From Cupriavidus sp. AU9028 (lineage in GTDB: Bacteria; Pseudomonadota; Gammaproteobacteria; Burkholderiales; Burkholderiaceae), in contig NZ_JAIMCG010000012.1 of NCBI RefSeq assembly GCF_019795295.1, forward strand, positions 1 through 64,000: a DNA stretch of 64,000 nucleotides, written 5' to 3'. The notes beneath the pieces were generated by a model. That model was not told the DNA's origin, searched no databases, and saw only the letters and a list, made by a program, of their open reading frames with translations. The first letter of the stretch is position 1; every line of letters begins with the position of its first letter. Shown here piece by piece: positions 11,842-36,998 of this stretch. The position numbers were made by a program, and so were the translations under genes.

Positions 11842-11882
11842 GCGGGCATGGGCGCAGAAGGAATCCCCCCGGGGATGCCCGC
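11842..11882 (+). promoter_or_regulatory. Inverted repeat in the pyrR-pyrB gap
   Basis: GCGGGCAT at 11842-11849 is an exact reverse complement of ATGCCCGC at 11875-11882, with a 25-nt loop that holds a short C-run/G-run. It starts immediately after the pyrR stop. It could fold in mRNA upstream of pyrB, or be a chance GC-rich repeat. No U-run follows, so it is not a classical terminator. Confidence 0.35.
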
Positions 11883-11961
11883 GCCTCGTGCCTGCCCGCG
11901 AGCCAGTTACCAGACCAGACACTCCACGCAAACCCGCCTGACCGCCAAGCCGTACCCGCCC

Positions 11962-12933
11962 ATGACCAAGACGTTCCGCAACCCGCAGCTCACCAGGAAC
12001 GGCGAGCTCAAGCACCTGCTGTCGATCGAAGGCCTGTCGCGCGACATGATCACGCACATCCTCGATACCGCCAGCCAGTTCGTCTCGCTGTCCGATTCGG
12101 ACCGCGACGTGAAGAAGGTGCCGCTGCTGCGCGGCAAGAGCGTGTTCAACCTGTTCTTCGAGAATTCCACGCGCACCCGCACGACCTTCGAGATCGCGGC
12201 CAAGCGGCTGTCGGCGGACGTGCTGAACCTGAACATCAACGCGTCGTCGACCAGCAAGGGCGAGTCGCTGCTGGACACCATCAACAACCTGTCGGCCATG
12301 TCGGCCGACATGTTCGTGGTGCGTCATGCCAGCTCGGGCGCGCCGTACCTGATCGCCGAGCACGTCGCGCCGCACGTGCACGTGATCAACGCCGGCGACG
12401 GCCGTCATGCCCACCCGACCCAGGGTCTGCTGGACATGTACACCATCCGGCATTTCAAGCGCGATTTCACCCAGCTGACGGTGGCCATCGTCGGCGACAT
12501 CCTGCATTCGCGGGTGGCGCGCTCGGATATTCACGCGCTGACCACGCTCGGCGTGCCGGAGCTGCGCGCGATCGGCCCGCGCACGCTGCTGCCTTCGGGG
12601 CTCGAGCAGATGGGTGTCCGCGTCTTCCACAACATGGAAGAGGGCCTGAAGGGCGTGGACGTCATCATCATGCTGCGGTTGCAGAACGAGCGGATGAGCG
12701 GGGCGCTGCTGCCCTCGGCGCAGGAGTACTTCAAGGCGTTCGGCCTGACCCCGGAGCGCCTGGCGCTGGCCGCGCCAGACGCCATCGTGATGCACCCGGG
12801 GCCGATGAACCGTGGCGTCGAGATCGACTCCGCGGTCGCCGACGGCCCCCAGTCGGTGATCCTGAACCAGGTCACCTTCGGCATTGCGGTGCGCATGGCG
12901 GTGATGGGCATCGTCGCCGGCAACAACGACTGA
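11962..12933 (+). CDS. pyrB: Aspartate carbamoyltransferase, catalytic subunit
   Basis: The enzyme condenses carbamoyl phosphate with aspartate in the first committed step of pyrimidine synthesis. The 323-residue protein contains the carbamoyl-phosphate motif [31 protein letters not shown] and a C-terminal [13 protein letters not shown]. The start is set at ATG 11962 ([10 protein letters not shown]); the upstream in-frame ATG at 11848 would add 38 Pro/Arg-rich residues with no family counterpart. No pyrI regulatory-subunit gene follows. Instead a pyrC-like gene lies 58 bp downstream, the arrangement known in Pseudomonas, where a DHOase-like protein forms part of the ATCase complex. Confidence 0.96.
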
Positions 12934-21652: not shown

Positions 21653-22465
21653 TTGACTGCAATTGCAACTGCGCTGTGGGGGTTGAAACGAAACCGCGGC
21701 CTGATCCTGCAGATGGTGAAACGGGAGGTACTGGGACGCTACCGCGGCTCCGTCATGGGGCTCGCCTGGTCGTTCTTCAATCCGTTGCTGCTGCTGGTCG
21801 TCTATACCTTCGTTTTCTCGGTGGTGTTCAAGGCCCGCTGGGGTACCGGCGATGGTCAGGCCAGCCATTCCGAATTTGCCGTGATCCTGTTCGTCGGCAT
21901 GATGGTGCATGGGCTGTTCGCCGAGTGCGTCAACCGCGCGCCGACGCTGATCCTGAACAACGTCACCTACGTGAAGAAGGTGGTGTTTCCGCTCGAGGTG
22001 CTGCCGGTGGTGGCGCTGGGCTCTGCGCTGTTTCATCTCGCTGTCAGTTTCATCGTGCTGCTGCTGGCCGAGTACGTGATCATGGGCCGCATTCCCTGGA
22101 CCATCGTCTATGTGCCGGTGGTGTTCCTGCCGCTGGTGCTGGCGACCATCGGCGTGGCCTGGTTCCTCGCCGCGCTGGGCGTCTACGTGCGCGACATCGC
22201 CCAGGCCACTGGCTTGTTCACCACCATCCTCGCGTTCGTGTCGCCGATCTTCTATCCGATGTCGGCGCTGCCCGAGCGCTTCCAGATCTGGATGAAACTC
22301 AATCCGCTTACCTATGTCATCGAGGAGGCCCGAAACACCGTGGTGTTCGGTCGCCATCCCAACTGGCAGGAGTGGGGGCTGTACTGCGCCGGCGGGCTGG
22401 TGATCGCGCTGCTCGGCCTGATGTGGTTCCAGAAGACGCGCAAGGGGTTTGCCGATGTCCTCTGA
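21653..22465 (+). CDS. wzm: Polysaccharide ABC transporter permease (Wzm)
   Basis: This is an ABC-2 type permease of 270 residues with about six membrane segments. The N-terminal block MVKREVLGRYRGSVMGLAWS is typical of O-antigen and teichoic-acid export permeases. With the downstream ATPase it should export completed undecaprenyl-linked glycan across the inner membrane. The start is TTG 21653 with GAGAGG upstream; the 55-bp gap before it is one of the few real gaps in the operon and is A/T-richer than its surroundings. The stop overlaps wzt by 11 bp. Confidence 0.93.
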   Translation: MTAIATALWGLKRNRGLILQMVKREVLGRYRGSVMGLAWSFFNPLLLLVVYTFVFSVVFKARWGTGDGQASHSEFAVILFVGMMVHGLFAECVNRAPTLILNNVTYVKKVVFPLEVLPVVALGSALFHLAVSFIVLLLAEYVIMGRIPWTIVYVPVVFLPLVLATIGVAWFLAALGVYVRDIAQATGLFTTILAFVSPIFYPMSALPERFQIWMKLNPLTYVIEEARNTVVFGRHPNWQEWGLYCAGGLVIALLGLMWFQKTRKGFADVL

Positions 22466-23819
22466 CGACCTGGCCATCCACGTCGAGAATCTGGGCAAGT
22501 GCTACCAGATCTACGACCGCCCCCACGACCGGCTGAAGCAGTCCATCGTCCCGCGCCTGCGCCGCATGGTCGGGGCCACGCCGCGCAGCTACGCGCGCGA
22601 ATTCTGGGCGCTGCGCGACGTCAGCTTCGATGTGCGGCGCGGCGAGACGGTCGGCATCATCGGCCGCAACGGCTCCGGCAAATCGACCCTGCTGCAGATG
22701 ATCTGCGGCACGGTCACGCCGACCACGGGCGCCATCCGCACCAACGGGCGGGTGGCCGCGCTGCTCGAACTGGGCGCCGGCTTCAACCCCGAGTTCACCG
22801 GGCGGGAGAACGTCTACCTGAACGCCGCGCTGCTGGGCCTGACGCAGGACGAGGTGGAACAGCGCTTCGACCGCATCGCCGCCTTCGCCGACATCGGCAG
22901 CTTCATCGAATCGCCGGTGAAACAGTATTCGAGCGGGATGTTCGCCCGGCTGGCGTTCTCGGTGGCCATCCACGTCGATCCCGAGATCCTGATCGTCGAC
23001 GAGATCCTGGCGGTCGGCGATGCGGCGTTCCAGCGCCGGTGCATGGCGAAGTTCTATGAAGTTCGCGAGCGGGGCTGTACCATCCTGTTCGTTTCGCACG
23101 ACCAGTACCAGGTGAAGTCGATCTGCCAGCGGGCCTTGTATCTGGACAGCGGCCGCCAGGTCGCCTTCGGACCGGCCGGCCGGACCATCGATCTGTACAT
23201 GATCGATATGGAAAAGTCCTTCGCCACATCTGAGGAGGCGAAGGCGCTGCCCGCGCCCGCGGCACAGGCCGATGGCGCGGAGCAGGCGCAGCCGGTTTCC
23301 GGAGAGGGGACCGGCGACGCCACGGCCGCCGAGCAGCCGCAGCCCGCGATCGCGGCGGTCGGCACGCTGGCGCAGCCGTTCGTGATTTCCAGGGTCGCGC
23401 TGCTCGATGCCGACGGAGGCGAGATCGAGGAAATCCAGTCGGGCGAGGAAGCGGTGATCGAGATGGACTTTCGCGCCATCGACCGCGGCTTCGCCGGCGG
23501 CATCAGCTTTGTCTTCAACCTGTACCGGCATGACGGCCTGTACATCTGCGGGTCCACCACCATCATGGATGGCCTGCAGCCTTACCCGTCCGGGCAGGGC
23601 GGCACCGTCAGGGTGCGCTTTCCCGATCTGCCGCTGCTGAGCGGCCGCTACAAGTGGCGGGTTGCCATCAATGACCACGGCGGTTTCTCCGTTCTGGCCG
23701 AGGCCAAGGACGTGTGTCAATTCACGGTCGTGGACAACTTCGATTCGGTCGGCCTCGTCAATCTGCAGAGAGAATGGCAGGTGAACATAGAACAGTGCGG
23801 AGTGAAAAATAATGATTGA
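22455..23819 (+). CDS. wzt: Polysaccharide ABC transporter ATPase with C-terminal carbohydrate-binding-type domain (Wzt)
   Basis: The 454-residue protein has a nucleotide-binding domain with Walker A GRNGSGKST near 70-78, signature YSSGMFARLAFSVAI, and Walker B ILIVDEILAVGD near 180-191. A long Ala/Glu-rich linker (about 258-300) joins it to a C-terminal beta-rich domain (about 305-454). Such Wzt C-domains in E. coli O8/O9a recognise the modified non-reducing end of the finished chain. The domain therefore predicts chain termination by a capping modification, which fits the adjacent methyltransferase. ATG 22455 is preferred over an upstream TTG. The end overlaps the methyltransferase start by 8 bp. 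Confidence 0.93.
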   Translation: MSSDDLAIHVENLGKCYQIYDRPHDRLKQSIVPRLRRMVGATPRSYAREFWALRDVSFDVRRGETVGIIGRNGSGKSTLLQMICGTVTPTTGAIRTNGRVAALLELGAGFNPEFTGRENVYLNAALLGLTQDEVEQRFDRIAAFADIGSFIESPVKQYSSGMFARLAFSVAIHVDPEILIVDEILAVGDAAFQRRCMAKFYEVRERGCTILFVSHDQYQVKSICQRALYLDSGRQVAFGPAGRTIDLYMIDMEKSFATSEEAKALPAPAAQADGAEQAQPVSGEGTGDATAAEQPQPAIAAVGTLAQPFVISRVALLDADGGEIEEIQSGEEAVIEMDFRAIDRGFAGGISFVFNLYRHDGLYICGSTTIMDGLQPYPSGQGGTVRVRFPDLPLLSGRYKWRVAINDHGGFSVLAEAKDVCQFTVVDNFDSVGLVNLQREWQVNIEQCGVKNND

Positions 23820-25026
23820 GCGGTTGCATTTCGGGTCGGACGCTCCTTACAGCGGTCTGGAAGCGTCCATCCATCTGGCCCGCTACCAGCTTGCGCGCGA
23901 CTATGCGCGCGGACGCCGGGTGCTCGACATCGCCTGCGGCGAAGGCTATGGCTCGGCATGGCTGCGCCAATGGGGCGCCACCGAAGTCGACGGCGTCGAC
24001 GTGTCGGTCGATGCCGTGGAGCTGGCCAAGGCCAATTTCGGCATCGACGGCGTGCGCTTTCATGCCTATGATGCGCAGCGGGCGGTGGAGCTGTTCCCCG
24101 ATCGCAAGTTCGATCTGATCGTCTCGCTGGAAACCATCGAGCACCTGCCCGATCCGAAGCGCTACCTGCTGAACCTGAAATCGCTGCTGGCCGAAGGCGG
24201 GATCCTGATCATCAGCTGCCCCAACGACTGGTGGTACTACCCGAGCGAGCAGGAGAGCAACCCTTACCACCTGCGCAAGTACCATTTCGACGAGTTCCGC
24301 GCGATGGCCTCCGAAGTGCTGGGCGAGGCGGACCGCTGGGGCATCGGTACCGCGCTGGCCGGGTTCGTCAATTTCGATCACCAGACCATCCCCAGGGCCA
24401 GCGGCAAGGACGACCAGCGGCTGATGATGGCATCGCAGCCCTGCGAGAACGCGTATATCGTTCCGGTAACGGCGGCGGACATGACGCGCCCGGAGAACAG
24501 CAGCTATTTCTTCGGCGTCTGGGGCACCTCGGACGTGACGGCAAGCGCCGCGGTGCTGCCGGTGCCGATGGACGTCTTCCGTAACGGCCTCTACGGCAGC
24601 CAGCCGGACGGCGAGCAGCTCGAGCAGGCGATGCGGGCCGTCAATGCGGCGGCGCTGGAGCGCGAGCGGGGCGATCACGACGCCTACGAGGCGCATCTGC
24701 GCGAAGCCCGCCTGCGCATGGCGGCGCTGGTGGCCGAGAACAAGGTGCTCAAGGCGAACATGGAGAAAGTCCGTTTCGCCGGACGAGAGGCGGAAAGTGC
24801 AGTGGGCTACTGGCGCTCCGAGTGGGACCAGTTGCTGGAAAAACACGAAGCGCTCCGGCGGGAAGCCGAGAGCGCCAACGAGTACTGGCGCTCCGAATGG
24901 AACCAGCTGCTCGAAAAATACGAGGCGCTTCGGCGCCAACAGGAAGCCGCGACACAGCGGTCGGTACGGGTCAACTTGGGTAGGGCAGCGACCAAACTAA
25001 GACAAGTACTGAAACGAGTTCGATGA
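23812..25026 (+). CDS. SAM-dependent methyltransferase with repeated coiled-coil tail (WbdD-like architecture)
   Basis: The N-terminal domain (about 1-230) is a class I methyltransferase: SAM motif VLDIACGEGYGSAWL near 37-51, DLIVSLETIEHLPDP, and LAEGGILIISCPN. Residues from about 265 form a long charged helix predicted to coil. It contains two near-identical 25-residue units; YWRSEW occurs at about 333 and again at 358, each followed by a QLLEK-EALRR sequence. The last 18 residues are basic and amphipathic (LRQVLKRVR). In E. coli, WbdD caps the O-antigen and uses a coiled coil as a chain-length ruler with a membrane-binding end. No kinase domain is present here. The role is inferred from architecture and its position next to wzt. 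Confidence 0.8.
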   Translation: MIERLHFGSDAPYSGLEASIHLARYQLARDYARGRRVLDIACGEGYGSAWLRQWGATEVDGVDVSVDAVELAKANFGIDGVRFHAYDAQRAVELFPDRKFDLIVSLETIEHLPDPKRYLLNLKSLLAEGGILIISCPNDWWYYPSEQESNPYHLRKYHFDEFRAMASEVLGEADRWGIGTALAGFVNFDHQTIPRASGKDDQRLMMASQPCENAYIVPVTAADMTRPENSSYFFGVWGTSDVTASAAVLPVPMDVFRNGLYGSQPDGEQLEQAMRAVNAAALERERGDHDAYEAHLREARLRMAALVAENKVLKANMEKVRFAGREAESAVGYWRSEWDQLLEKHEALRREAESANEYWRSEWNQLLEKYEALRRQQEAATQRSVRVNLGRAATKLRQVLKRVR

Positions 25027-26984
25027 CCTTAGAGTTCAGCGCAACCGACATACAAACTCTCTACCTGACGGGCGACGGCAGCCCGGGACGAGTTCTCACC
25101 CTGCTCGATCCCGGCATGCCGGACGTTGGCTCGCCGATATGCCGGGCCCGAAACCTGTGCATCGTCATCAGCCAGCCGGTCGACATGACTGGATTGGATG
25201 GCGTGCTTGCGCGGGTGCAGGCCAGCATCCCGCGCTTTGCCGGCGAGTTCTGGTTCCGACCCTCTTCGCGCCAGGCCGTCGAAGCGATGATGGCGCGTGT
25301 GCGCGAGCTGCTGCCCGGCACCACCGTCAGGCCGCTGTCGGCGAGCACGCGCCCGCTGGGAGCGAACGAGAAGAACCACGTGCTCGCCGCGACGGCGGCG
25401 GACTGGCTGTTCTTCATCGATCCCGACCTGATGTTCACGCGGGACCTGTTCGTGACGGCGCTGAACGACCTGTGCGGCACCGGTGCGCACTTCCTCGTGC
25501 TGCCGGTGCGCAACCAGCATCAGAAGGCGGGCTGGTGGGAGGGCGTGGTCGGTACCGACGACAATGGCGACATCGTGCTGCAGGCGCGCCGGCTCTGGCG
25601 CGACAACACCTGGGAATGGTCGCCCAGCCATGATCTCGCGATCCTGGAGGACAGCGGCTTTCTGGCTCGCCGCACCAGCCTGGTCGCGGCCGGCGGTTTC
25701 CACGATGGGGACGATGGCGTCGCCATCAACGCCAACCTGTCCGCCCGCATCTTCGCCTCGGGTTACAAGGTGGCGGTGTCGTCGTACACCTTGCGAGGCG
25801 ACGTGCCCGCCGAGATCCCGCCGCGGATGGAAATCGGCACCGTGCTGCACCGGTGCGAGGACCGCATGGAGGACTGGCTCAAGCCCTACGGCCTCGAACG
25901 GCTGGTGACGCCGCCCGGCGGGGACGCCAACAGCACGCTGCTCAGTGGCGAGCGCATCAAGGTGGCGCTGGTGATCGACGTCGATTTCTGGGCGTTCGGC
26001 AATATCGCCCGGCAGGTCAGCCGCTATCTGGCGGACGAGTTCGAGTTCGTGGTGATTCCGGTCGGCGTGGTCTCCAACATCAACCAGGTGCTGATGCTGA
26101 CGCAGGGTTGCCGCATCGTGCATTTCTTCTGGCGCGAGGTGCCGCGGCAGATCGGCAGCGAGTACTACTACTCCTACGCGGAGAGCCTGGGCTTCACGGG
26201 CGAGGAGTTCGACCAGCTCTATCTGCACGACAAGCTGATCACGACCTCGGTCTACGATCACCTGCTGCTCGAGCCGGAGGAGGTCGAGTTGCGTGCGCCG
26301 ATGTACCGGGACCTGATCGCGGGCTACACGGTGTCGTCGCAGCGGCTGCACGGCATCTACTCGGCGCTGCCGGGCTATCCGGCGCCCACCGAGGTGACCG
26401 AGGATGGGGTGGACCTTGGCCTGTTCCGGCCGCAGAACCTGTCGCGCTTCGACAACGTGGCGGCGCGTCCGCTGCGCGTGGGCTGGGTCGGCAACAGCAA
26501 GTGGGAGGCCCGCACCGAGGACTTCAAGGGCCTGCACACGCTGCTCAAGCCCGCGCTGGAGGAGCTCGCGGCGGAGGGGTGGAACATCATGCCGCTCTAT
26601 GCCGACCGGCAGGACGGCTTCATCCCGCACCACCTGATGCCCGACTACTACGCGCAGATCGACGTCTACGTCTGCCCGTCGAAGATCGAGGGAACGCCGA
26701 ACCCGGTGCTGGAGGCGATGGCCTGTGGCGTGCCGGTGATTTCCACCGACGTCGGCATCGTGCCGCAGGCGTTCGGGCCGTTGCAGAAGGAATTCATGCT
26801 GCCCGAGCGCAGCAAGGAGGCGCTGAAGGTGCAGTTGCGCAAGCTGCTGGCCGATCCGTCCTGCCTGCGCCGCCTCTCGGACGAGAACCTGCAGTCCATC
26901 CAGGACTGGTCGTGGGAGATCAAGGCGCAGAAATTCCGCCACTTCTTCCATGCGGTGCTGAACCGGACGGTGACGGCTGCATGA
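25023..26984 (+). CDS. Two-domain glycosyltransferase (GT-A-like domain plus GT4)
   Basis: This 653-residue protein appears to join two transferases. The N-terminal part (about 40-290) resembles a GT-A fold, with WLFFIDPDLMFTRDL near 126-140 supplying a possible D-x-D metal site. The C-terminal part (about 320-640) is a GT-B GT4 enzyme, with VEDGVDLGLFRPQ, RVGWVGNSKW and KIEGTPNPVLEAMACGVPV, which contains the nucleotide-sugar-binding Glu. Such double enzymes can add two sugars of one repeat unit in sequence. The start overlaps the methyltransferase stop as ATGA. The first few codons are unusually A/T-rich. Sugar and linkage specificity cannot be inferred. Confidence 0.82.
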   Translation: MTLEFSATDIQTLYLTGDGSPGRVLTLLDPGMPDVGSPICRARNLCIVISQPVDMTGLDGVLARVQASIPRFAGEFWFRPSSRQAVEAMMARVRELLPGTTVRPLSASTRPLGANEKNHVLAATAADWLFFIDPDLMFTRDLFVTALNDLCGTGAHFLVLPVRNQHQKAGWWEGVVGTDDNGDIVLQARRLWRDNTWEWSPSHDLAILEDSGFLARRTSLVAAGGFHDGDDGVAINANLSARIFASGYKVAVSSYTLRGDVPAEIPPRMEIGTVLHRCEDRMEDWLKPYGLERLVTPPGGDANSTLLSGERIKVALVIDVDFWAFGNIARQVSRYLADEFEFVVIPVGVVSNINQVLMLTQGCRIVHFFWREVPRQIGSEYYYSYAESLGFTGEEFDQLYLHDKLITTSVYDHLLLEPEEVELRAPMYRDLIAGYTVSSQRLHGIYSALPGYPAPTEVTEDGVDLGLFRPQNLSRFDNVAARPLRVGWVGNSKWEARTEDFKGLHTLLKPALEELAAEGWNIMPLYADRQDGFIPHHLMPDYYAQIDVYVCPSKIEGTPNPVLEAMACGVPVISTDVGIVPQAFGPLQKEFMLPERSKEALKVQLRKLLADPSCLRRLSDENLQSIQDWSWEIKAQKFRHFFHAVLNRTVTAA

Positions 26985-27484
26985 CGGCGCCGGATCCGCG
27001 CCGCGAGGCGAGCGGGCGCGAGCCGCGCGAGGGGGACGCGCCCGCTGCCGCCGAGGGCCATCACGACGAGCAGGTGCTGGCGCGCCTGCTGCGCCAGTTC
27101 CTCGCCTTCGCCGGGATCTCCGGTGCGTGCTGGGTGCTGGACTTCGTGCTGCTGCTGATCCTTACGCTGGGGTTCGGCATGTCGGCGCTGGCCGGCAACC
27201 TGATCAGCTCGACGATCGCGGCGGGTACCGCCTTCACGATCTCGGCCCGCTACGTCTTCAAGCGTGGGGGCGGCATGCTGGCGGGCAAGCTGGCCTTCTA
27301 CCTGACGTACAACGCGCTGATGATCCTCGCCGCCTCGTGGGTGATGGGGCAACTGGTGCCGTGGCTGATGGCGTGGATGGGGCGGCCCCATGCGGTGGTG
27401 CTCGCCAAGATCCTGATCACGCCGGTGCTGATGCTGAGCAATTTTGCCGTCGGCAAGCTGACTGCCGAGCGGCTGAAAATCTAG
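26981..27484 (+). CDS. GtrA-like membrane protein
   Basis: This small polytopic protein of 167 residues has four membrane segments between about 38 and 162 and a charged, disordered N-terminus of about 30 residues. LRQFLAFAGISGACWVLDF and the later AGTAFTISARYVFKR fit the GtrA family. GtrA proteins are proposed to flip undecaprenyl-phosphate-linked glucose or another monosaccharide to the periplasm for modification of O-antigen. It overlaps the preceding glycosyltransferase as ATGA and lies 20 bp before a GT2 gene, the order usual for gtrA-gtrB. Confidence 0.85.
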   Translation: MTAPDPRREASGREPREGDAPAAAEGHHDEQVLARLLRQFLAFAGISGACWVLDFVLLLILTLGFGMSALAGNLISSTIAAGTAFTISARYVFKRGGGMLAGKLAFYLTYNALMILAASWVMGQLVPWLMAWMGRPHAVVLAKILITPVLMLSNFAVGKLTAERLKI

Positions 27485-27504: not shown

Positions 27505-28308
27505 ATGACCGACACGACGAAAGTCTTGCTGTTTATCCCGATGTACAACTGCGAGCGGCAGATCGGCCGCGTGCTCGGGCAGCTGGACGCACGCGCGCGC
27601 AAGGTGATCGACGCCGTCATCGTGGTCGACAATCGCAGCCCCGACGGCAGCCAGGCGGCGGCGCGCCGTGCGATGGAAACCGTGCCGGACGTGCCGGTGC
27701 GCCTGCTGGAGAACGTGGGCAACTACGGGCTGGGCGGCTCGCACAAGGTTGCCTTCGACTATGCCCGCGCGCATGGGTACAGCCACGTGATCGTGCTGCA
27801 CGGCGATGACCAGGGCGATATCCACGACCTCGTGCCGTTGCTGGAGCAGGGGCGCCATCTCGGCGTCGACTGCCTGCTGGGCGCGCGCTTCATGCGCGGG
27901 GCCCGGCTGCAGAACTACTCGCGCTTTCGCACCTTCGGCAACGAGGTGTTCAACTGGATCTTCTCCATCGCCGCGGGCAAGCGCCTGTACGACCTTGGCT
28001 CCGGGCTGAACCTGTACTCGGTGCAGGCACTCGGCCGCATTCCCTATCACCGCTACGCCAACGATCTGACGTTCAACTACTACATGATCCTGGGCACCGT
28101 CGCCGCGGGGTGGCGCATCGAGTTTTTCCCGATCTCGTGGCGCGAGGACGACCAGATCTCCAACGTCAAGCTGTTCAAGCAGGCGCGCAAGACGCTCGGG
28201 CTGGTGGCCTCGTTCTTCTTCCGCCGCCGCTGGTTCCTGGAAACCGACCATAGCGGCGCGCCCGGGCAGCAGTATCAGTCCACCGTCGTCGCGGAGTCGG
28301 CGCCGTGA
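27505..28308 (+). CDS. GT2 glycosyltransferase, polyprenyl-phosphate sugar synthase type
   Basis: The 267-residue GT-A enzyme resembles dolichol/undecaprenyl-phosphate mannosyl- or glucosyltransferases: VLLFIPMYNCERQIGRVL, VIVVDNRSPDGS and LHGDDQGDIHDL near 98-109. Next to a GtrA-like gene it would be expected to act as GtrB, charging undecaprenyl phosphate with one sugar. Unlike typical GtrB it has no C-terminal pair of membrane helices; the chain ends shortly after SFFFRRRWFLETDH. Membrane attachment would then depend on partners. AGGAACGACA precedes the ATG. The start lies 20 bp after the gtrA-like stop. Confidence 0.85.
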   Translation: MTDTTKVLLFIPMYNCERQIGRVLGQLDARARKVIDAVIVVDNRSPDGSQAAARRAMETVPDVPVRLLENVGNYGLGGSHKVAFDYARAHGYSHVIVLHGDDQGDIHDLVPLLEQGRHLGVDCLLGARFMRGARLQNYSRFRTFGNEVFNWIFSIAAGKRLYDLGSGLNLYSVQALGRIPYHRYANDLTFNYYMILGTVAAGWRIEFFPISWREDDQISNVKLFKQARKTLGLVASFFFRRRWFLETDHSGAPGQQYQSTVVAESAP

Positions 28309-29333
28309 TGGCCCCGGGCCGGTTGTCTTCGAGGCAGGACGCGGCTTCCGCGTGGAGCGCGCGCGTCGGCCTGGCCGGGCGCATCCTGTTCGCGCTGGCG
28401 ATGCTCGCGCTGCTGGTGCACACCGTGATGTCGCTGCCGTACTTCACGCAGGTACTGTCGCGGCTGTCCGATGGCGGCGCGCTCGCCATGGTCGGCATCC
28501 TTGCCTATCTGGGCGCGCACCTGCTGCGGGCGCTGCGGCTGGCGATCATCGCCGGCGGTCATGAAGTCAGCTTGCGCCGGCTGACCTCGGTCCACTTCGC
28601 CACCGCCGGGGTATCGCTGCTGCTGCCGTTCAAGCTGGGCGAGCTGTACCGCATCTTCGAGATCAGCCTGGTCGCCGGCGGCCTGCGCCGCGCGGTGCAG
28701 ACGGTCTGGATGGAGCGCGCCTTCGATGTCGCGGCACTGGTGGTGATGATGCTGGTGGTGGCGGTGGCGCCGGCCGGTGCGGCGGCGGTGTTCGCGCCGC
28801 TGTCGGCGGCGGCGGCGCTGTTCATCGCGCTGACCGTCATCACCTTCGTGGTCTTGCCGGGCAACCTGCGCACGCTGTCGCTGTTCGTGATCCGCCGCTA
28901 TCGCTCGGAACGGGCGGTGACGGCGCTGCGCGCGCTGGACAGCGTGCTGCGCTTCGTCGAGAGCGGCCGCCAGCTGCTGCGCAACAAGCAGGGCGTGGTC
29001 GGGGCGGTGTCGGCCTTCATCTGGGCGCTCGAAGTGGCGTCGTTCGGGCTGATCGTCGCCGCCATCGGTCCGGCCGCCGAGCCGCTGCTCGAATCGTTCC
29101 TGGCCTACGTCTCCACCGCTTCGTTCGGCGCCGCCGAATGGTATCCGGTGTACGGAACCGGCGCGGAATCGCTGCTGGCGTTCCCGGTCAAGGTGTTCGT
29201 CTACGGGGTGCTGACGCGCCTGCCGCTGTTCGTCTGCGCCCTGGCGTTCGGCGCGCTGTACGCGCCGGCGCGCCTGTCCGGCGGGCTGTCGCTCAAGAGC
29301 CCCTTCTCCCTCAAGAATGGAAATCAACAGTGA
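28308..29333 (+). CDS. LPG-synthase-TM (UPF0104) family membrane protein
   Basis: This 341-residue polytopic protein has about eight hydrophobic segments. The pattern LRALRLAIIAGGH, then GVSLLLPFKLGELYRIF, resembles the membrane domain of lysylphosphatidylglycerol synthase and the UPF0104 family. Members occur in many glycan loci and have been suggested to move or flip lipids, but the function is not established. No catalytic site is evident. GTG 28305 and ATG 28308 are both possible starts and overlap the previous stop. The stop overlaps the GTG start of the kinase-like gene. Confidence 0.75.
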   Translation: MAPGRLSSRQDAASAWSARVGLAGRILFALAMLALLVHTVMSLPYFTQVLSRLSDGGALAMVGILAYLGAHLLRALRLAIIAGGHEVSLRRLTSVHFATAGVSLLLPFKLGELYRIFEISLVAGGLRRAVQTVWMERAFDVAALVVMMLVVAVAPAGAAAVFAPLSAAAALFIALTVITFVVLPGNLRTLSLFVIRRYRSERAVTALRALDSVLRFVESGRQLLRNKQGVVGAVSAFIWALEVASFGLIVAAIGPAAEPLLESFLAYVSTASFGAAEWYPVYGTGAESLLAFPVKVFVYGVLTRLPLFVCALAFGALYAPARLSGGLSLKSPFSLKNGNQQ

Positions 29334-30793
29334 GCCTTTATCTGATCGTCGACGACACCGTACGCGTCTCGGATGAAATCGCCGGCCTGACTGGGGTATC
29401 GAGCTTCGGCAGGCTGCTGTACCGGCGCCGCACGCTGGTGCAGCACCTGGAGGACGCGGCCGCCGAGGCGGGCTTGCCGGCGCCGGTGGTGCTGCCGTCG
29501 CGCGCCGCCGCGGCGGAACTGGAGCACCGGCTGGCCCACGAGGACTGGCAGGCGTCGTTCCTTGTGATCCCCACCAATATCGTCGCGATGGCCCCGCGCG
29601 CGGAGCTGGTCACGCTGTTGCGGCAGCTACGCTACGTCGCGCAGAACATCCAGCTGCCGGTCGCCCGCGGTGCCGACTGGTCGGGGCTGCTGCGGCTGGA
29701 TACGCCGCTCGCCCGACGCTATCTGCGGCTGGTGGCCGAAGGGGCGGGGCCGGCCGATTTCGTCGCCCGCCACGGCAACGAGATCGCGCCGATCGACAAC
29801 TGCATCAACTTCACCGATCTGCGCGACCAGGCCCAGTTCCTGATCTTCCTGACCAGCAACTTCGACGTTCGCCATTTCAATGCCATCGTCAACGAGAACT
29901 TCACCATCGTGAAGCGCTCGACCGATGTGGCGAAGCTGCGTCGCGAGTTCAACTACTACGGCCTGCTGCCGCCGGAAGTGCAGATGTTCTTCGTGCAGCC
30001 GTTCGACTTCCAGCAGATGCCGGACCACGCCAGCTACCGGATGGAGCGGCTGTTCCTGCCCGACATGGCGATCCAGTGGGTGCATGGGGCAATCCGTCCC
30101 GACGAGTTCCAGCGCTTTCTCGACCGCGTCTTCCACTTCGTCTCGGTGCGCCCGCGCCGGCCGGTGGACCGGGCCACGGCGCTGGCCGAGATGGACCGGC
30201 TCTATTGGGAGAAGGTCGCCGAGCGGATCGACAAGCTCAAGCAGCTGCCCGAGTACGCGCGCCTCGGTCCGCTGATCGACCAGGCGGTGGGCGGCATCGA
30301 TGCGCTGCTGGAACGCTATCGCCAGCTGTACTTCGCCGCGCGCGATCGCTTCCCCTGCGACCACCTGGCGATCGGCCACGGCGACCTGTGCTTCTCGAAC
30401 GTGCTGTACAGCAAGTCGACGCAGCTGCTGCGCTTCATCGATCCGCGCGGCGCCGACCACGCCGACGAGCTCTACACCGATCCCTACTACGACATCGCCA
30501 AGCTGTCGCATTCGATCCAGGGCGCCTACGACTTCATCAACGGCGGCCGCTTCAGCATCGACTTCGGCGCCGGGCTGGAGATGACGCTGGTGACCGACGA
30601 GGGGGACCGCTCCTGGGCGCGCGCGCAGTTCCGCCAGATGCTCGAGCGGCACGGCTACGATGCCCGGCTCGTGCGGCTGTGCGAGGCCTCGCTGTTCATC
30701 AGCATGCTGCCGCTGCATATCGACCTGCCGAGGAAGGTGCTTGCCTTCGTGCTGAACGCCGCCGCCATTCTTGACGACATTTCGGCCGGCTGA
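29330..30793 (+). CDS. APH/choline-kinase-like phosphotransferase with N-terminal extension
   Basis: In this 487-residue protein the C-terminal half has the catalytic signature of aminoglycoside/choline kinases: IGHGDLCFSNVL near 348-359 (H-G-D-x-x-x-x-N) and FIDPRG near 369, equivalent to the metal-binding D-x-G region. The N-terminal half (about 1-200) is not recognised. The probable GTG start at 29330 overlaps the previous stop. Directly downstream are a small HAD phosphatase and a nucleotidyltransferase, so a pathway of phosphorylation and nucleotide activation of a small alcohol, amino alcohol or sugar is inferred. No substrate can be named; choline or ethanolamine are only possibilities. 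Confidence 0.78.
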   Translation: MSLYLIVDDTVRVSDEIAGLTGVSSFGRLLYRRRTLVQHLEDAAAEAGLPAPVVLPSRAAAAELEHRLAHEDWQASFLVIPTNIVAMAPRAELVTLLRQLRYVAQNIQLPVARGADWSGLLRLDTPLARRYLRLVAEGAGPADFVARHGNEIAPIDNCINFTDLRDQAQFLIFLTSNFDVRHFNAIVNENFTIVKRSTDVAKLRREFNYYGLLPPEVQMFFVQPFDFQQMPDHASYRMERLFLPDMAIQWVHGAIRPDEFQRFLDRVFHFVSVRPRRPVDRATALAEMDRLYWEKVAERIDKLKQLPEYARLGPLIDQAVGGIDALLERYRQLYFAARDRFPCDHLAIGHGDLCFSNVLYSKSTQLLRFIDPRGADHADELYTDPYYDIAKLSHSIQGAYDFINGGRFSIDFGAGLEMTLVTDEGDRSWARAQFRQMLERHGYDARLVRLCEASLFISMLPLHIDLPRKVLAFVLNAAAILDDISAG

Positions 30794-30816
30794 AGCGCCG
30801 GCGCCAAGAGGAACCC

Positions 30817-31218
30817 ATGATTCACAAGGACAGATGCCTGGTGCTCGATATCGACGGCACCATCGTGCCGACCCGCCGGGCGAGCGAAAGCTACGACGAC
30901 CTGCAGCCGTATCCGGAGATGGTGCAGCGCATTCGCGAGTATCGCGAGATGGGCTTCTACATCATTCTCTATTCGTCGAGGAACATGAAGACCTACGACG
31001 GCAATCTGGGGCTGATCAATGCCAATACGGCCAAGGTGCTGCTGAACTGGCTGGAGAAACACCAGATTCCGCACGACGAATTGCACCTGGGCAAGCCGTG
31101 GGTGGGGCGCGGCGGCTTCTACGTCGACGACAAGGCGATCCGGCCCGACGAGTTCCTGCGCCACAGCTATGACGAAGTGCTGAAGATCATCTCGCCCGAG
31201 GACGAGAGCGGCCAGTGA
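30817..31218 (+). CDS. Small HAD-superfamily phosphatase, capsule-locus type
   Basis: This compact HAD protein of 133 residues has no cap domain. Motif I is VLDIDGTIVP with Asp11 and Asp13; YSSRNMKTY supplies the Ser/Thr motif, and YVDDKAIRPDEF contains the acidic motif IV. Similar short HAD proteins are common in capsule and LPS loci beside nucleotidyltransferases, but few have known substrates. AAGAGGAAC lies just before the ATG. It sits 23 bp after the kinase-like gene and 23 bp before the nucleotidyltransferase. A phosphatase removing or proof-reading a sugar or polyol phosphate is inferred. Confidence 0.82.
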   Translation: MIHKDRCLVLDIDGTIVPTRRASESYDDLQPYPEMVQRIREYREMGFYIILYSSRNMKTYDGNLGLINANTAKVLLNWLEKHQIPHDELHLGKPWVGRGGFYVDDKAIRPDEFLRHSYDEVLKIISPEDESGQ

Positions 31219-31241
31219 CGGGACCAATACCGGGAGAACAT

Positions 31242-32003
31242 ATGACGACGACCATCATCATCACCATGGCCGGCATGGGCAAGCGCTTCCTCGACGCCGG
31301 CTACGACCGTCCCAAGTACAAGGTGCAGGCGCACGGCCGCACGCTGTTCGCCTGGTCCCTGCTGAGCCTGGCCGATTTCCTCGCGCGCGGGGCGCGCTGC
31401 ATCTTTGTCGTGCGGGCGGAAGACAAGGCCACCGACTTCATCGGCGAGCAGTGCCGCGAACTGGGTATCGCCTCCTACGACGTGGTCGAACTGGATGCGC
31501 TGACCGACGGCCAGGCCACCAGCGCGCTGCTGGCAAAGCCAAAGGTCACCGCGCCCGACCAGCCGATGCTGGTCTACAACATCGACACCTATGTCGATCC
31601 GCGTACGCTGCCCGCGGATGCGGTGCGCGGCGACGGCTGGGTTCCCTGCTTCCCGGGCGCCGGTGCGGCCTGGAGCTTCGCCCGGGCCGACGGCGATGGC
31701 CGCATTGCCGAGCTGCGCGAGAAGGAGCGCATCTCGGACGATGCCACCGTGGGGCTCTACTGGTTCTCCTCGTTCACGCTGTACGAGGCCGTCTACCACC
31801 GCTTCTTCGCCGACCCGTCCAACCTCGCCAAGGGCGAGCGCTATATCGCGCCGATGTACAACGACATGATCGCGCACGGGCACCCGGTCTACCTGCATCG
31901 AGTGCCGCTGGACGGCGTGATTCCGCTCGGCACGCCGGCGGACGTGGAGGCCTTCCTTGCGCGGCAGGCGCCGGTGCTGCCCGCCGCCGTGGCCCAGTCC
32001 TGA
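31242..32003 (+). CDS. NTP-transferase family nucleotidyltransferase
   Basis: The 253-residue Rossmann-like nucleotidyltransferase carries the binding loop ITMAGMGKRF near 7-16 and a metal-site region LVYNIDTYVDPRTL near 111-124. It should couple a phosphorylated substrate to a nucleotide, giving an NDP- or CDP-activated donor. The preceding kinase-like and HAD genes probably provide or edit its substrate. The short loop differs from RfbA (GGSGTRLYP) and is nearer to sugar-phosphate or alcohol-phosphate transferases of capsule loci. ATG 31242 has GGGAGAAC before it, so it was preferred over an upstream in-frame GTG. Confidence 0.82.
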   Translation: MTTTIIITMAGMGKRFLDAGYDRPKYKVQAHGRTLFAWSLLSLADFLARGARCIFVVRAEDKATDFIGEQCRELGIASYDVVELDALTDGQATSALLAKPKVTAPDQPMLVYNIDTYVDPRTLPADAVRGDGWVPCFPGAGAAWSFARADGDGRIAELREKERISDDATVGLYWFSSFTLYEAVYHRFFADPSNLAKGERYIAPMYNDMIAHGHPVYLHRVPLDGVIPLGTPADVEAFLARQAPVLPAAVAQS

Positions 32004-32015
32004 GGGGCCCCTGGC

Positions 32016-34964
32016 GTGGCTGAAAGCACACCAACGCGCAGCAGACCGCGCAGGCCGATGCCGTTCGCGCGGCGCCGGGCGGCGCTGCCGCGGCGCCAGC
32101 GCTGGCATCCGCTTCTCGTCCTTGCCGCACTCGCGCTAGCGACGGCGGGGTTCTTCATTGCGCGCGACTTCTGCAAGGTCCATGACATCGCCGTGCCCCG
32201 CCTGGCGATCGCGCTGTTCGCATTGCTGGTGGGCGCCGGTTGCGTGGCCGCGGTGCGCGCCTGCCGCAACTGGCAGCACGGCACCGTGCTGGTGGTGCTG
32301 GGCCTGTGCGGCGCCGCCATCGGCGGGCTGCTGCCGCCGGCTCCCGGCGGCGCGCAGCGGGTGGAACTCACGGCGACAGGGGAGCGCAATCCCGAAGCGA
32401 AGGGCAGCGAGGTATGGGCGCTCGACGTGGTGCCCGGCCGGGTCCATATGGAAGGACCTGGCTGGGAGCACCGCGATGGGCGAGTCTCGGTGTCCTGGCA
32501 GTCGCAACCGTCCACCGCGGTGCTCAAGGGGCCGTGGCGGCAAGGCGATGTGCTGCGCCTGGTTACCCATGCGTATTCGGGCATCGTCGAACTGAAGGCG
32601 GACGGGCGGACCGAGCGGATCGATCTGTATAGCGCGGAGCAGGGCGCCATCATGGTGACGCTGCCCGCGCCGCGAGCCAATCTCGCGCGCACGGTGCTGC
32701 ACGGCACGCTGCCGGTGCTGCTGCTGTTGGCGCTGGCCGCGCTGCTGTTGTATCTGCCGCGCCCCTGGGCCGCGCTGCTGCTGACGGGGGCGGTGCTGGG
32801 CACGGCGACGCTGTGGCATCTGCAAGCGCGCTCCTATCCGGGCGCGCTGGAGCTGCTGGCCTACGGGGATGCGGAACTGGCCCGTCTCGAGGGCGATATC
32901 GGCAACGGCAGTTTCGAGATCCCGGCCGGCAACACGGCCGGCGCTCGCGCGGTCTCCGCAAGTTTCGCGCACCCCGGCGCGGATTCGCTGCATCTGCGCG
33001 CGGCCAGCGGCACGCTGGAGCCGGTGCCCGACGTGTCGGAGACCGGCATGCGGGTCGCCCGCAGCGGCGCCGAAGGCGAGCCATTGTGCGAACAGGCCGA
33101 GCCGATCCAGCTATTCCGCTGGCTGGGCGACCGCTCGCGTCCGTTGCTGCTCGATGGCGCCGGCAATCGCACCGCGTTGTGGACGACCGCGGGTCTCGGA
33201 GACGCCGGTCAGCCCGGCTATGTCGTCGTGGTCTGCGACGGCGCCTCGGTGCGCATCTCGGCAACCACCGCGTATATCCGCATCGATCCGTGGGCGCAGC
33301 CGTGGTGGCAGCTGCGCGAGGTGCGTGCCGAAGACGCGGCCGGACAGCCCATGCCACTGCTGCAGCTGTCGGCGGAACGCCCCGCTGGCTTCGTCGGCCT
33401 GGCGGCGGCCAGCAACGGCGCCTATGCCCCGGTGCTGTTCGACCGTCCCGACACGCGGGCGATCGCCATCGAGAAGCTCGTGGCGGCGATCGTGGTGGCG
33501 CTGCTGCCGGCAATGCTGTGGCTGGCGCTGACGAATTTCGCAGTGTTGCGCCGGCACTGGGTGCCGGGCACGCGCCTGCTCGCGCTGCTGTGCTTCACGC
33601 TGCCGCCGCTGTGGATCGGCGCGACCATGATGGTGCTGTGGCCAGGGACCATCGGCTGGGACGCCTATTCGCCCTACATCCAGATGCATGCGGGTACGGT
33701 CACGCTGTGGTACGGGATCGGCTACCCGCTGTTGATCGGCGGACTCGCCTTGCTGATGGCGCCGGCGCTGATCGGCGTGGCGCAATGCATCGTGATGGCG
33801 CTGGTCGTGCAGGCAGTGACGGTACGCTGCCTCGATGCCCGCCCGGGACTGCGCTGGGTGGGGCTGGCGACCTGCCTGGCGCTGCCGCTCACCATCGTCG
33901 CCTGGGGCGCCACGGTGCATCTGCGCGATGCGATGAACGGCACCCTGATGGCGCTGTTCGGCATCGGCTGGTTCTATACCGTGGTCGACGGCCAGCGCTG
34001 GCGGCGCGGGCGCCGGGGGCTGGCGCTCGGCCTGCTGGCGGCGCTGGCGCTCGGCCTGGTGCTGCTGCGGATCGACAATATCGTCTTCGTCGGCGTTGCC
34101 CTGATGGCGCTCCCGCTGCTGGTGCGCGGCGTGCGCCGCCGCCTGCTGGCATTCGCCGTGGCCATGGTGGTGCTGTGCCTGGGCATCAATCCGGCCATGG
34201 AACAGGCGGTGTTCGGCTCCCGCGAAGGGCTGGTCGCGGAGAAGAACTTCTACCGGCAGACCGCCTTCATCAGTCCTCTGGTCGGGTATCTGGCCGATCC
34301 CGACAGCAGGCTGTCCGCGCAGCAGAAGGAAGCGCTGGCGCGCGACCTGGCGCCGCTGTTCGACCTGAAGGCGGCGGTGAGCCACTGGAAGCCGCATCAC
34401 GTCATCTGGTGGCACGAAGCGGTCGAAGGCAAGCCCGCGCCGACTGCCGAGCAGATCGCGTCGCTGCAGCGGCACTACATTCGCACCGCGCTGCAGGATC
34501 CGCTGCGGTTCCTGCGGATGCGCGCCGCGATGTTCCTGTCCACGCTGGGGCACAAGTGGATCGCGGTGCCGCCGGTGCCGGCGGCGCCCGGCGCGCAGGT
34601 GCTGCTGGACCGCCTCACCATGCCGCACGACGCGCAGGCGGGCGCTACCGCCCGGCTGATCGGCTTCGACCCGGCGCTGCGGCCCTGGCCGGCACTGGCG
34701 GAGCGGCTGTTCCGGTTTGCCGATGCCGTTGCCACCACGCTGCCGCAGCTGGTGATTTGCATCGTCATGCTGTTCTGCGTGCGCTGGACGCCGGTCGCCG
34801 CAGTGCTCGCGCTGGCCCTGCTGGGGCGCGCGGCGGTGTTCTTTTTCTTTGCGCCGGCGGACGCCCTTCTCTATCTGTTCGACCTGCATGTGCTCGGCTT
34901 CCTGCTGCCCGGCATGGCGGTGTACGAACTGAGCAGGCGCCGCCCGCGCGTTTCGATTGCATAA
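32016..34964 (+). CDS. Large polytopic membrane protein, putative GT-C glycosyltransferase
   Basis: This 982-residue protein begins with a basic N-terminus and a few membrane segments, then has a soluble region of about 200 residues (roughly 275-480). A second block of about eight to ten segments spans 490-980. WPGTIGWDAYSPYIQMH near 545-561 lies at a membrane-loop border and contains an acidic residue where GT-C enzymes hold their catalytic Asp. No family is firmly recognised. As the operon also has GtrA-like and GT2 genes, this could be the transferase that uses an undecaprenyl-phosphate sugar in the periplasm. A polymerase or ligase role is an alternative. The start is GTG 32016 with TGAGGGG upstream. 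Confidence 0.65.
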   Translation: MAESTPTRSRPRRPMPFARRRAALPRRQRWHPLLVLAALALATAGFFIARDFCKVHDIAVPRLAIALFALLVGAGCVAAVRACRNWQHGTVLVVLGLCGAAIGGLLPPAPGGAQRVELTATGERNPEAKGSEVWALDVVPGRVHMEGPGWEHRDGRVSVSWQSQPSTAVLKGPWRQGDVLRLVTHAYSGIVELKADGRTERIDLYSAEQGAIMVTLPAPRANLARTVLHGTLPVLLLLALAALLLYLPRPWAALLLTGAVLGTATLWHLQARSYPGALELLAYGDAELARLEGDIGNGSFEIPAGNTAGARAVSASFAHPGADSLHLRAASGTLEPVPDVSETGMRVARSGAEGEPLCEQAEPIQLFRWLGDRSRPLLLDGAGNRTALWTTAGLGDAGQPGYVVVVCDGASVRISATTAYIRIDPWAQPWWQLREVRAEDAAGQPMPLLQLSAERPAGFVGLAAASNGAYAPVLFDRPDTRAIAIEKLVAAIVVALLPAMLWLALTNFAVLRRHWVPGTRLLALLCFTLPPLWIGATMMVLWPGTIGWDAYSPYIQMHAGTVTLWYGIGYPLLIGGLALLMAPALIGVAQCIVMALVVQAVTVRCLDARPGLRWVGLATCLALPLTIVAWGATVHLRDAMNGTLMALFGIGWFYTVVDGQRWRRGRRGLALGLLAALALGLVLLRIDNIVFVGVALMALPLLVRGVRRRLLAFAVAMVVLCLGINPAMEQAVFGSREGLVAEKNFYRQTAFISPLVGYLADPDSRLSAQQKEALARDLAPLFDLKAAVSHWKPHHVIWWHEAVEGKPAPTAEQIASLQRHYIRTALQDPLRFLRMRAAMFLSTLGHKWIAVPPVPAAPGAQVLLDRLTMPHDAQAGATARLIGFDPALRPWPALAERLFRFADAVATTLPQLVICIVMLFCVRWTPVAAVLALALLGRAAVFFFFAPADALLYLFDLHVLGFLLPGMAVYELSRRRPRVSIA

Positions 34965-34976
34965 GGAGGGGGAATC

Positions 34977-36998
34977 GTGGACGCATTGTCTGACGCCCTA
35001 CGCGAGATCCCTGAGCAGGTCAGCCTGATCTGCACCGACTATTTCGACACCCTGGTGTCGCGCACCGTCCATCCCGAGGACGTCAAGCGGCTGTGGGCCG
35101 AGCGCATCGTCCATGCGCTCGATCTGAAGCTGGACGAAGGGCAGATGTACGCCCGGCGCGCGCAGGTGGAGCGCACGCTGTGCCAGGCCAACGCCTCGTG
35201 TGGCAAGGACCCCGAGTTCGATGTCCACGCGTGCTACGACGCGCTGTGGGAAGGGCTGCCGGCAAGCCGGCCCTCGCGCGAGGTGTTTCGCAAGCTGGCG
35301 CTGGAGCTCGAAGTGTCGATCGAGTGTTCGGTGCAGCGGCTCGACGAAGCGCTGGTGGCCTGGCTGCGGCAGCAGCGCGCGGGCGGGCGGCGCGTCGTGC
35401 TGGTCAGCGATTTCTATCTGCATTCCAGCGCGTTCTGCCGGATGCTGCGCTTCCATGGCATCGAGGACCTGTTCGAGGCAGTGTTCGTCTCGGCGGACAC
35501 GCTCACCACCAAACGCTCGGGCCGCGCGTTTCCCGACATCCTGCGCTGGGCCGGCGTGCAACCGGCGCAGGCGCTGATGATCGGCGACAACCCGGAAGCG
35601 GACGTCAACCAGCCGCGCAAGCAGGGCATGCACGCGGTGCTGCTCGATCGCAGCGAGCGCCACGCGGAATACCAGCGGCTGGCGGCCGTCTGCGCGGACC
35701 GCGGCGGCTGCGAGCGGACCCTGACGGAGATCATTTCGCACGACGACGGCCCGTTCGCCGAGCTGGCGCTGACGCTGTTCACCTTCACCGAGCGGCTGTA
35801 CTGGCATCTGCTGGGCAAGGGCGTGCGGGACGTGTTCTTCCTCGCGCGCGAGGGGCAGCTGCTGATGGCGATGTTCGACCGCTACCAGCGCACGCGCGTG
35901 CCCACGCCGGAAGTGGCCATCCGCGCGCACTATCTGGAAGTGTCGCGCCGCTCCACATTCCTGCCCTCGCTCGGTCCGCTGGACGAGGAGGACTTCGACA
36001 CGCTGTTCCGCCAGTACCGCCGCATCTCGGTGGAGGAATTCCTGCTCAACCTCGGGCTGGAGGGCCTGCTGCCGGCGCTGCAGGCCGAACTGGCGCAGGG
36101 CAGCGAGGCGATCGACCTGCGCCAGCGCGAGGACGACCTGCCGACCAGCGACATCTACCGCCGGCTGCTTGCCAGCCAGACCTTCCGCGACGCCTACGAA
36201 CGCGCGCGCAGCGAAGGGCGGCGCGCGCTGCTGGCCTATCTGGACGGCTTCCCGCTGCAGCAGCCGGCCCAGACGCTGGCGCTGGTCGATGTCGGCTGGA
36301 AGGGCACCATCCAGGACAATCTCTACCGCCTGCTGCGCCATGCGCATGCCGAACTGGACCGCCCGCTGCTCGATATCGACGGCTACTACCTCGGCCTGGT
36401 CGCGCATGGCAACGCCGGGCCGCACAACCGCAAGCACGGCCTGCTGTTCTCGGTGCAGGACGGCGCCACGCCGCGCTATCGGATCTTCAACGAGAACCGC
36501 GCGCTGTTCGAGGTGATGCTCGGCGCCGACCACGGCTCCGCACGGGGCTATCGACTGCGTCCGGACGGCGGCGGCGAGCCGGTGCGCGGCGAGTTCAGCG
36601 AGCAGAGCCTGTTCGAATCGCAGGTGCGCCCGGCACAGCAGCGCATGATGGCGACCTTCGGGCGGATCGACGCGCTGCTGGCCCACCGCTACTACGGCGC
36701 GGACTGGCTGGCCGACTTTGCCGCGCGGCTGCACGCACGCATGGTGTTCGCGCCGGCGCCCAGCGAGATCGACTGGTTCACGGGCGTCTACCACGTGGAG
36801 AATTTCGGCGTGTTCGAGCGCTCCGAGTTCCGCTGCCGGCAGCAGGAACGCGCGCGCCTGCTGGACCAGATGCGCTTTGCCTGGGGCCTGTTCCGCCTGC
36901 GCGGGCGCATGGACCTGGGCTTCTGGCCCTGGCTCAGTTGCCGCCAGCGGGGCGGGCAGCTGGTGGCCGCGGCCTATCGGCTGTACCGCCTGCGCTGA
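34977..36998 (+). CDS. Large HAD-type protein of polysaccharide loci (COG5610-like)
   Basis: This 673-residue protein has an N-terminal HAD hydrolase domain with motif I ICTDYFDTLVSR (Asp21), VLVSDFYL as motif II, and LMIGDNPEADV as motif IV near 200. The middle region starts with DVFFLAREGQLLMAMF near 285-300, as in predicted HAD-type hydrolases found in O-antigen clusters. The rest is mixed alpha/beta and unassigned. Start GTG 34977 is well supported by TAAGGAGGGGG just upstream, which also overlaps the previous stop codon. Function is unknown; phosphate removal or sugar-phosphate transfer at the chain is possible. Confidence 0.72.
   Translation: MDALSDALREIPEQVSLICTDYFDTLVSRTVHPEDVKRLWAERIVHALDLKLDEGQMYARRAQVERTLCQANASCGKDPEFDVHACYDALWEGLPASRPSREVFRKLALELEVSIECSVQRLDEALVAWLRQQRAGGRRVVLVSDFYLHSSAFCRMLRFHGIEDLFEAVFVSADTLTTKRSGRAFPDILRWAGVQPAQALMIGDNPEADVNQPRKQGMHAVLLDRSERHAEYQRLAAVCADRGGCERTLTEIISHDDGPFAELALTLFTFTERLYWHLLGKGVRDVFFLAREGQLLMAMFDRYQRTRVPTPEVAIRAHYLEVSRRSTFLPSLGPLDEEDFDTLFRQYRRISVEEFLLNLGLEGLLPALQAELAQGSEAIDLRQREDDLPTSDIYRRLLASQTFRDAYERARSEGRRALLAYLDGFPLQQPAQTLALVDVGWKGTIQDNLYRLLRHAHAELDRPLLDIDGYYLGLVAHGNAGPHNRKHGLLFSVQDGATPRYRIFNENRALFEVMLGADHGSARGYRLRPDGGGEPVRGEFSEQSLFESQVRPAQQRMMATFGRIDALLAHRYYGADWLADFAARLHARMVFAPAPSEIDWFTGVYHVENFGVFERSEFRCRQQERARLLDQMRFAWGLFRLRGRMDLGFWPWLSCRQRGGQLVAAAYRLYRLR

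Follow-up and report, generated by a model that had tools for sequence, protein, structure and literature searches.

To our knowledge, how bacteria activate fructose for capsules and lipopolysaccharides (LPS) is unsettled. Two described systems offer templates: the nucleoside diphosphate (NDP)-heptose route, consisting of an isomerase, a kinase, a GmhB-type HAD phosphatase and a nucleotidyltransferase, and three-component Gtr-type glycosylation, consisting of a GT2 glycosyltransferase that loads a lipid carrier, a GtrA flippase and a periplasmic GT-C transferase. Here we analyze a 64,000-nucleotide stretch of Cupriavidus sp. AU9028 (contig NZ_JAIMCG010000012.1, positions 1 to 64,000; hereafter the window), in which a kinase, a cap-less HAD phosphatase and a nucleotidyltransferase are encoded together (the trio). 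The trio follows the logic of the heptose route, but its kinase is APH-like and it contains no isomerase. Homologues of all three proteins are encoded by adjacent genes around kfoE in the Escherichia coli K4 capsule locus, although there the order is HAD-kinase-nucleotidyltransferase instead of kinase-HAD-nucleotidyltransferase. We propose that the trio is a pathway to the activated donor of a furanose-form 2-ketose, in all likelihood D-fructofuranose, with which a surface polysaccharide is decorated, and we put the probability of this proposal at roughly 0.57. The sequence-only reading of the locus had left the choice between an alcohol, an amino alcohol and a sugar open; a ketofuranose now leads, because a KfoE-type kinase in the same kind of set is required for fructose in K4.

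The three genes lie on the forward strand in the order kinase (29330..30793; GTG start, 487 amino acids), HAD phosphatase (30817..31218; 133 amino acids) and sugar-phosphate nucleotidyltransferase (31242..32003; 253 amino acids). The open reading frame (ORF) coordinates confirm the order first noted and the 23 base pairs (bp) in each of the two gaps, and the stop of the upstream gene overlaps the kinase start by 4 bp. The window kinase is homologous to K4 KfoE (26% identity over 311 residues, E 5e-26) and carries the HGDxCFSN and DPRG motifs; the HAD and the nucleotidyltransferase are 38% and 33% identical to their K4 counterparts. The C-terminal part of the kinase, from about residue 180, is APH/choline-kinase-like and is preceded by an N-terminal part of about 180 residues whose fold is unclear. 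Across seven aligned trios, K195, E206, H350, G351, D352, C354, F355, N357 and I370-G374 of the kinase, D11, D13, R55, K93, D104 and D105 of the HAD, and G11, R15, P24, K25, N113 and D115 of the nucleotidyltransferase are invariant, and we take these residues to be the catalytic positions of their families. In a larger kinase alignment, K195, E206, H350, G351, D352, C354, S356, N357, D371, P372 and R373 are invariant in all 44 rows. The window kinase has no match in Pfam, PF01636 (APH; cut-off 23.2 bits) included, a single weak APH match in NCBIfam (19.5 bits against a cut-off of 205) and no solved relative in a sequence search of the PDB. A Variovorax relative (L010) clears the Pfam APH cut-off (36.7 versus 23.2 bits), and the kinase of the 118UI locus has no APH match in Pfam. 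The HAD has EcbF-BcbF (TIGR01689) as its nearest named family, with 144.4 bits over profile positions 4-124 of 126, under the curated cut-off of 162, and PDB 1xpj as a solved relative (E 7.8e-36). The solved relative of the nucleotidyltransferase is PDB 4evw (E 7.2e-40).

The case for fructose comes from the K4 locus. With a plasmid-borne E. coli copy of the trio as query, 120 of 5426 E. coli genomes gave matches, 4 along the whole query and 116 along a small portion of it, mostly the HAD gene among the matches listed; in all six chromosomal E. coli loci inspected the trio is complete. In strain SCU-115 (L098), HAD, kinase and nucleotidyltransferase genes are adjacent in a capsule locus beside the chondroitin synthase KfoC. 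This is the K4 locus, since its 686-residue GT2 protein matches the chondroitin synthase in PDB 2z86, with all 625 chain residues aligned and two visible differences. Furthermore, one and the same set of 20 genomes among the 5426 carries both kfoC and the kinase gene at an identity of at least 99%. The K4 polymer is described in excerpts of two papers as GlcA and GalNAc (chondroitin) with a fructose branch (PMC7429809, PMC5317027), and kfoA, kfoF and kfoC are allotted to the backbone in an excerpt of a third (PMC3673904), so that fructose is the one sugar of the repeat unit to which no donor pathway has been assigned. Deletion of kfoE yields non-fructosylated chondroitin, according to passages in PMC7925653 and PMC7429809. 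The deletion arms printed in the latter match the SCU-115 locus without mismatch at 11220-11269 and 12839-12888 and abut exactly both borders of the kinase gene (11270-12838), a gene annotated in SCU-115 as encoding a hypothetical protein. KfoE is therefore the kinase homologue of the trio: the gene whose removal reportedly abolishes fructosylation is the trio kinase. The pathway can thus no longer be called new without qualification, as it had been, since the same kind of set surrounds kfoE. KfoE was reportedly named a fructosyltransferase by Liu in 2014, a name it bears because its loss removes fructose. In three K4-type E. coli, WP7-S18-ESBL-09, WP4-W18-ESBL-09 and F8, the kfoE match is split in two and an IS1 transposase is annotated between the parts, and the K4 capsule of these strains may be unfructosylated.

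The three genes belong together well beyond K4. Searching named genomes with an alignment of seven kinase sequences, we obtained at least 545 confirmed relatives, of which the best 80 were taken, ranked by similarity to a Variovorax kinase with neighboring genes playing no part in the ranking. A related nucleotidyltransferase lies within 1.5 kb of the kinase in all 80 loci and a related HAD does so in 72, the orders being HAD-kinase-nucleotidyltransferase (61), kinase-nucleotidyltransferase (6), HAD-nucleotidyltransferase-kinase (6), nucleotidyltransferase-HAD-kinase (5) and nucleotidyltransferase-kinase (2). This linkage is far beyond chance, and the trio is a conserved module. Rare linkage elsewhere, which would have refuted the sequence-only reading, is not what these loci show, and a role in activating a substituent, as the sequence-only reading had suggested, is the best reading of three genes that recur together; that reading had the gene set right and its purpose right in part. 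Two loci hold putative fusions, which could also be sequencing errors: one open frame spans kinase and nucleotidyltransferase in L017, and HAD and nucleotidyltransferase in L041. Among 398 genomes drawn from the phylum of the window, 28 have a kinase match, the window counted. Both partners lie in the short flanks of 13 of the 14 kinases scoring above 200 bits (L108, one of the 13, has a HAD match of just 35 bits), and in the fourteenth, G458, the HAD is about 2.7 kb away; neither partner was found beside any of the 14 matches below 100 bits (0/14). Closer to the window, kinase matches are scarce: 3 of 60 relatives, 2 of 60 genomes of the genus, 6 of 200 family genomes and 3 of 369 class genomes, the window being counted each time. 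Among these, one family match (G959) and one class match (G191) are weak and lack both partners. The distribution of the module is patchy, as is often the case with capsule genes.

The route that we propose runs from kinase to HAD to nucleotidyltransferase because it is modelled on the heptose route. The kinase would phosphorylate fructose 6-phosphate at the anomeric O-2 to yield fructose 2,6-bisphosphate, in which the 6-phosphate would keep the furanose ring. The HAD would then take off the 6-phosphate, leaving fructofuranose 2-phosphate, and the nucleotidyltransferase would convert this into NDP-fructofuranose. Alternatively, the HAD step could open the route, with fructose 6-phosphate as substrate, or close it, with the polymer as substrate, the latter in the manner of the ribofuranose system. 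In K4, a separate transferase would use the NDP-sugar as donor.

We built a tree of 57 rows: 21 loci were chosen, and 36 were taken from the 71 others with all three proteins. One branch (SH-aLRT 99, no bootstrap) sets apart the six window-type rows (window, G008, G458, G669, G932 and G958), and another (SH-aLRT 99) sets apart 50 other rows; the Legionella row is very long and unsure in its placement, and several rows, that of the window included, are of unusual composition. K4 and the 118UI locus are far from each other within the larger clade, and the window trio falls outside the clade of K4, the vibrios and 118UI. Since the window-type rows stand on their own branch, the window trio is a relative of the K4 clade and not a member of it, and its sugar is less certain. 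The window-branch trio might then activate another ketofuranose or furanose, such as xylulose, sedoheptulose or tagatose, by the same pathway logic. We consider this unlikely, though it is the strongest competitor to fructofuranose: besides the separate branch, the identity of only 26% to KfoE speaks for it, and the window-type rows keep just 39-44 of the 55 kinase columns and 31-38 of the 48 nucleotidyltransferase columns that are conserved in the main clade, yet in the HAD each of the six rows keeps 28-29 of the 31 columns conserved in the 50 main-clade rows. The ribofuranose case of this alternative is unlikely in the window, where a relative of a solved ribofuranosyl transferase (34977..36998, forward strand; PDB 7shg, E 1.6e-112, residues 16-622) is encoded next door as part of the context and not of the trio. 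The window polysaccharide accordingly probably contains ribofuranose, for which this neighbor accounts, and we set ribofuranose aside as product of the window trio. The neighbor has HAD matches in its N-terminal part (Pfam, NCBIfam), and a gene of its type was matched in the stretch of only one of the five window-type relatives (L137).

With KfoE as a donor-making enzyme, the transfer of fructose should fall to a different protein. Clustering of the 80 loci placed a WavE protein in 29, a family including a 477-residue K4 protein in 16 and neither in 35. We call this family KfoD-like, a label taken from the position of the K4 protein only; it joins the K4 protein, the C-terminal part of an 829-residue protein of the 118UI locus (L095) and proteins from further trio loci, in part through weak links. 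WavE and KfoD-like proteins are no more than candidate fructose transferases. By clustering, no locus among the 80 has both, and we dropped the idea that they are mutually exclusive, since two loci outside the 80, Citrobacter L006 and ES1 L100, hold both, the KfoD-like protein beside WavE being a distant one. No WavE match was found in the window's own genome, a weak negative since the search control matched nowhere either. The presence of these candidates beside the trio counts against the published view of KfoE-type proteins as fructosyltransferases for which the HAD and the nucleotidyltransferase merely supply the donor. This view has the published name and knock-out phenotype on its side, and the N-terminal part of main-clade kinases resembles the neighboring nucleotidyltransferase (hhalign probability 93.9%, E 1.6e-7), a fold common to some glycosyltransferases. 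However, that part is missing from the Legionella copy and is unrecognizable as a nucleotidyltransferase domain in the window branch, where such an assignment was tried on the window kinase and found no support (hhalign probability 0.8%, E 0.066), whereas the kinase-type positions are invariant throughout the 44 rows and one relative exceeds the APH cut-off; we therefore regard a transferase role for KfoE as improbable. Least probable of all is a LicA/LicC-like or CDP-alcohol route to a CDP-linked alcohol or amino alcohol. LicA and LicC broadly correspond in kind to the kinase and the nucleotidyltransferase, but 72 of the 80 loci have a linked HAD phosphatase, and the repeat unit of the trio-bearing K4 capsule, as given in excerpts, has no such group (PMC7429809, PMC5317027). 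The sequence-only reading saw no GHMP kinase, isomerase, epimerase or LicD-like transferase, negatives at which no search was aimed.

Several loci outside K4 bear on the fructofuranose proposal. In Vibrio mimicus (L089) and other vibrios, the trio lies among genes of the Kdo transferase, heptosyltransferase, ligase and WavE families, in what looks like an LPS core cluster, and the V. cholerae core contains fructose. The K52 capsule also holds fructose. The 118UI trio occurs in 37 of the 5426 E. coli genomes, one of them named O15:H18 ST69, and K52 is mostly found in CC69 according to an excerpt of PMC13171598; we infer that the 118UI locus is K52. The main text of an E. coli capsule catalogue of 2026 (PMC13171606), as distinct from its figures and supplements, which may carry such an annotation, has no word starting with 'fru'.

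Other observations weigh against the proposal. The kfoE knock-out fits donor synthesis and transfer alike and cannot tell them apart, and a polar effect on the downstream nucleotidyltransferase gene is possible; KfoE, which scores under the Pfam APH cut-off (13.5 versus 23.2 bits), is said to stand in print as a fructosyltransferase (Liu, 2014). Two window-type relatives have K in place of the R of DPRG, and long branches part the window branch from the clade containing K4, so that specificity may have changed. The trio is also found in the O-antigen loci of E. coli O78 (L096) and O20/O137 (L097), whose O-antigen structures are not known to contain fructose. An acid-labile residue may have been lost or missed from these structures; O20/O137 contains ribose, and ribofuranose could be the product of the trio there. 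The locus of the fructose-bearing Campylobacter jejuni HS1 lists no such trio as described in PMC7901785, which implies another fructose route. Finally, no HAD was found in 8 of the 80 loci (L014, L015, L016, L026, L039, L040, L073 and L084) within 10-kb flanks or to the contig end, tblastn being negative too; one of these, L073, is a contig of 5.6 kb. These eight loci suggest that the HAD step can be replaced or bypassed. The Variovorax loci among them (L014, L015 and L016) keep kinase and nucleotidyltransferase with no HAD within 10 kb, and their near relative L013 differs.

The window branch differs from K4 in its companion genes, which the sequence-only reading had left out of its account of the trio. 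Upstream on the same strand are genes for a GtrA family membrane protein, a possible flippase for a lipid-linked sugar (26981..27484; PF04138, 29.9 bits against a cut-off of 26.1), a GT2 protein of the dolichol-phosphate-mannose (DPM) synthase kind (27505..28308; PF00535; PDB 5mlz, DPM synthase, E 5.5e-7) and a PF03706 membrane protein (LPG synthase TM region), a possible flippase or scaffold (28305..29333; 47.5 bits against a cut-off of 33.4). The GT2 protein, whose AglJ and PpgS matches in NCBIfam are both under cut-off, likely makes a polyprenyl-phosphate sugar. Downstream, also on the forward strand, a 982-residue membrane protein (32016..34964) has 14 hydrophobic segments, no Pfam match and no meaningful PDB match; we consider it a candidate for a GT-C transferase with the lipid-linked sugar as its substrate. 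The GT2 and PF03706 proteins accompany the trio in all five window-type relatives and GtrA in four. The 982-residue protein has homologues in two of the five (L137 and L138), and G008 encodes a different protein of 527 residues with 12 hydrophobic segments 3' of its trio. No match to GtrA, GT2 or PF03706 was found in the trio loci L009, L094, L139 and L101, the last a short stretch. Likewise, no GtrA or PF03706 protein is named in the K4 region, where the GT2 proteins are KfoC and a 446-residue protein.

Because GT2, PF03706 and GtrA accompany the trio, the arrangement suggests that the sugar of the window branch is carried on a lipid and attached outside the inner membrane. The GT2 protein would transfer the sugar to polyprenyl phosphate, GtrA, the PF03706 protein or both would flip the lipid-linked sugar, and a membrane transferase, perhaps that at 32016-34964, would attach it outside. 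With a GtrA, a DPM-synthase-like GT2 and a large membrane protein flanking the trio, this resembles Gtr-type glycosylation, but the window has in addition the PF03706 protein and the linked donor-making trio, and its large membrane protein matches no known GT-C. Farther upstream, at 21653-23819, we read from the sequence one ORF resembling an ABC permease and another for a Wzt-like ATPase whose C-terminal part is long (81% and 73% identical to their counterparts in L137), which suggest an ABC-exported polysaccharide. The region 25023-26984 encodes a 653-residue protein that is also conserved in L137 and L138; it ends in a C-terminal GT4 domain, and its N-terminal half matches nothing in Pfam.

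Together, these observations make a ketofuranose donor the probable product of this widespread module, with fructose in K4 as the best-supported case; the window holds a distinct variant, apparently linked to a lipid carrier. A fuller picture, which we put forward tentatively and hold to be less likely than the donor pathway itself, is a widespread bacterial route to nucleotide-activated fructofuranose via fructose 2,6-bisphosphate, with KfoE as an APH-type anomeric kinase, plus the window variant with polyprenyl-phosphate carriage and attachment outside. Among the literature matches listed, no title or abstract opening reports a pathway to NDP-fructose as a donor or assigns the trio a role, and some of the papers contain 'GDP-fructose'. 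The present analysis ties kfoE, the only trio gene for which we saw genetic evidence, to the kinase of a three-enzyme module. If the proposal is true, a gene that is deleted in strains used to produce chondroitin would receive a corrected name, fructose 2,6-bisphosphate would be a bacterial intermediate and a gene set found across several phyla would be explained. It would also warn that acid-labile ketofuranoses may be lacking from published O-antigen structures, and the Gtr-like variant of the window predicts a lipid-linked ketofuranose.

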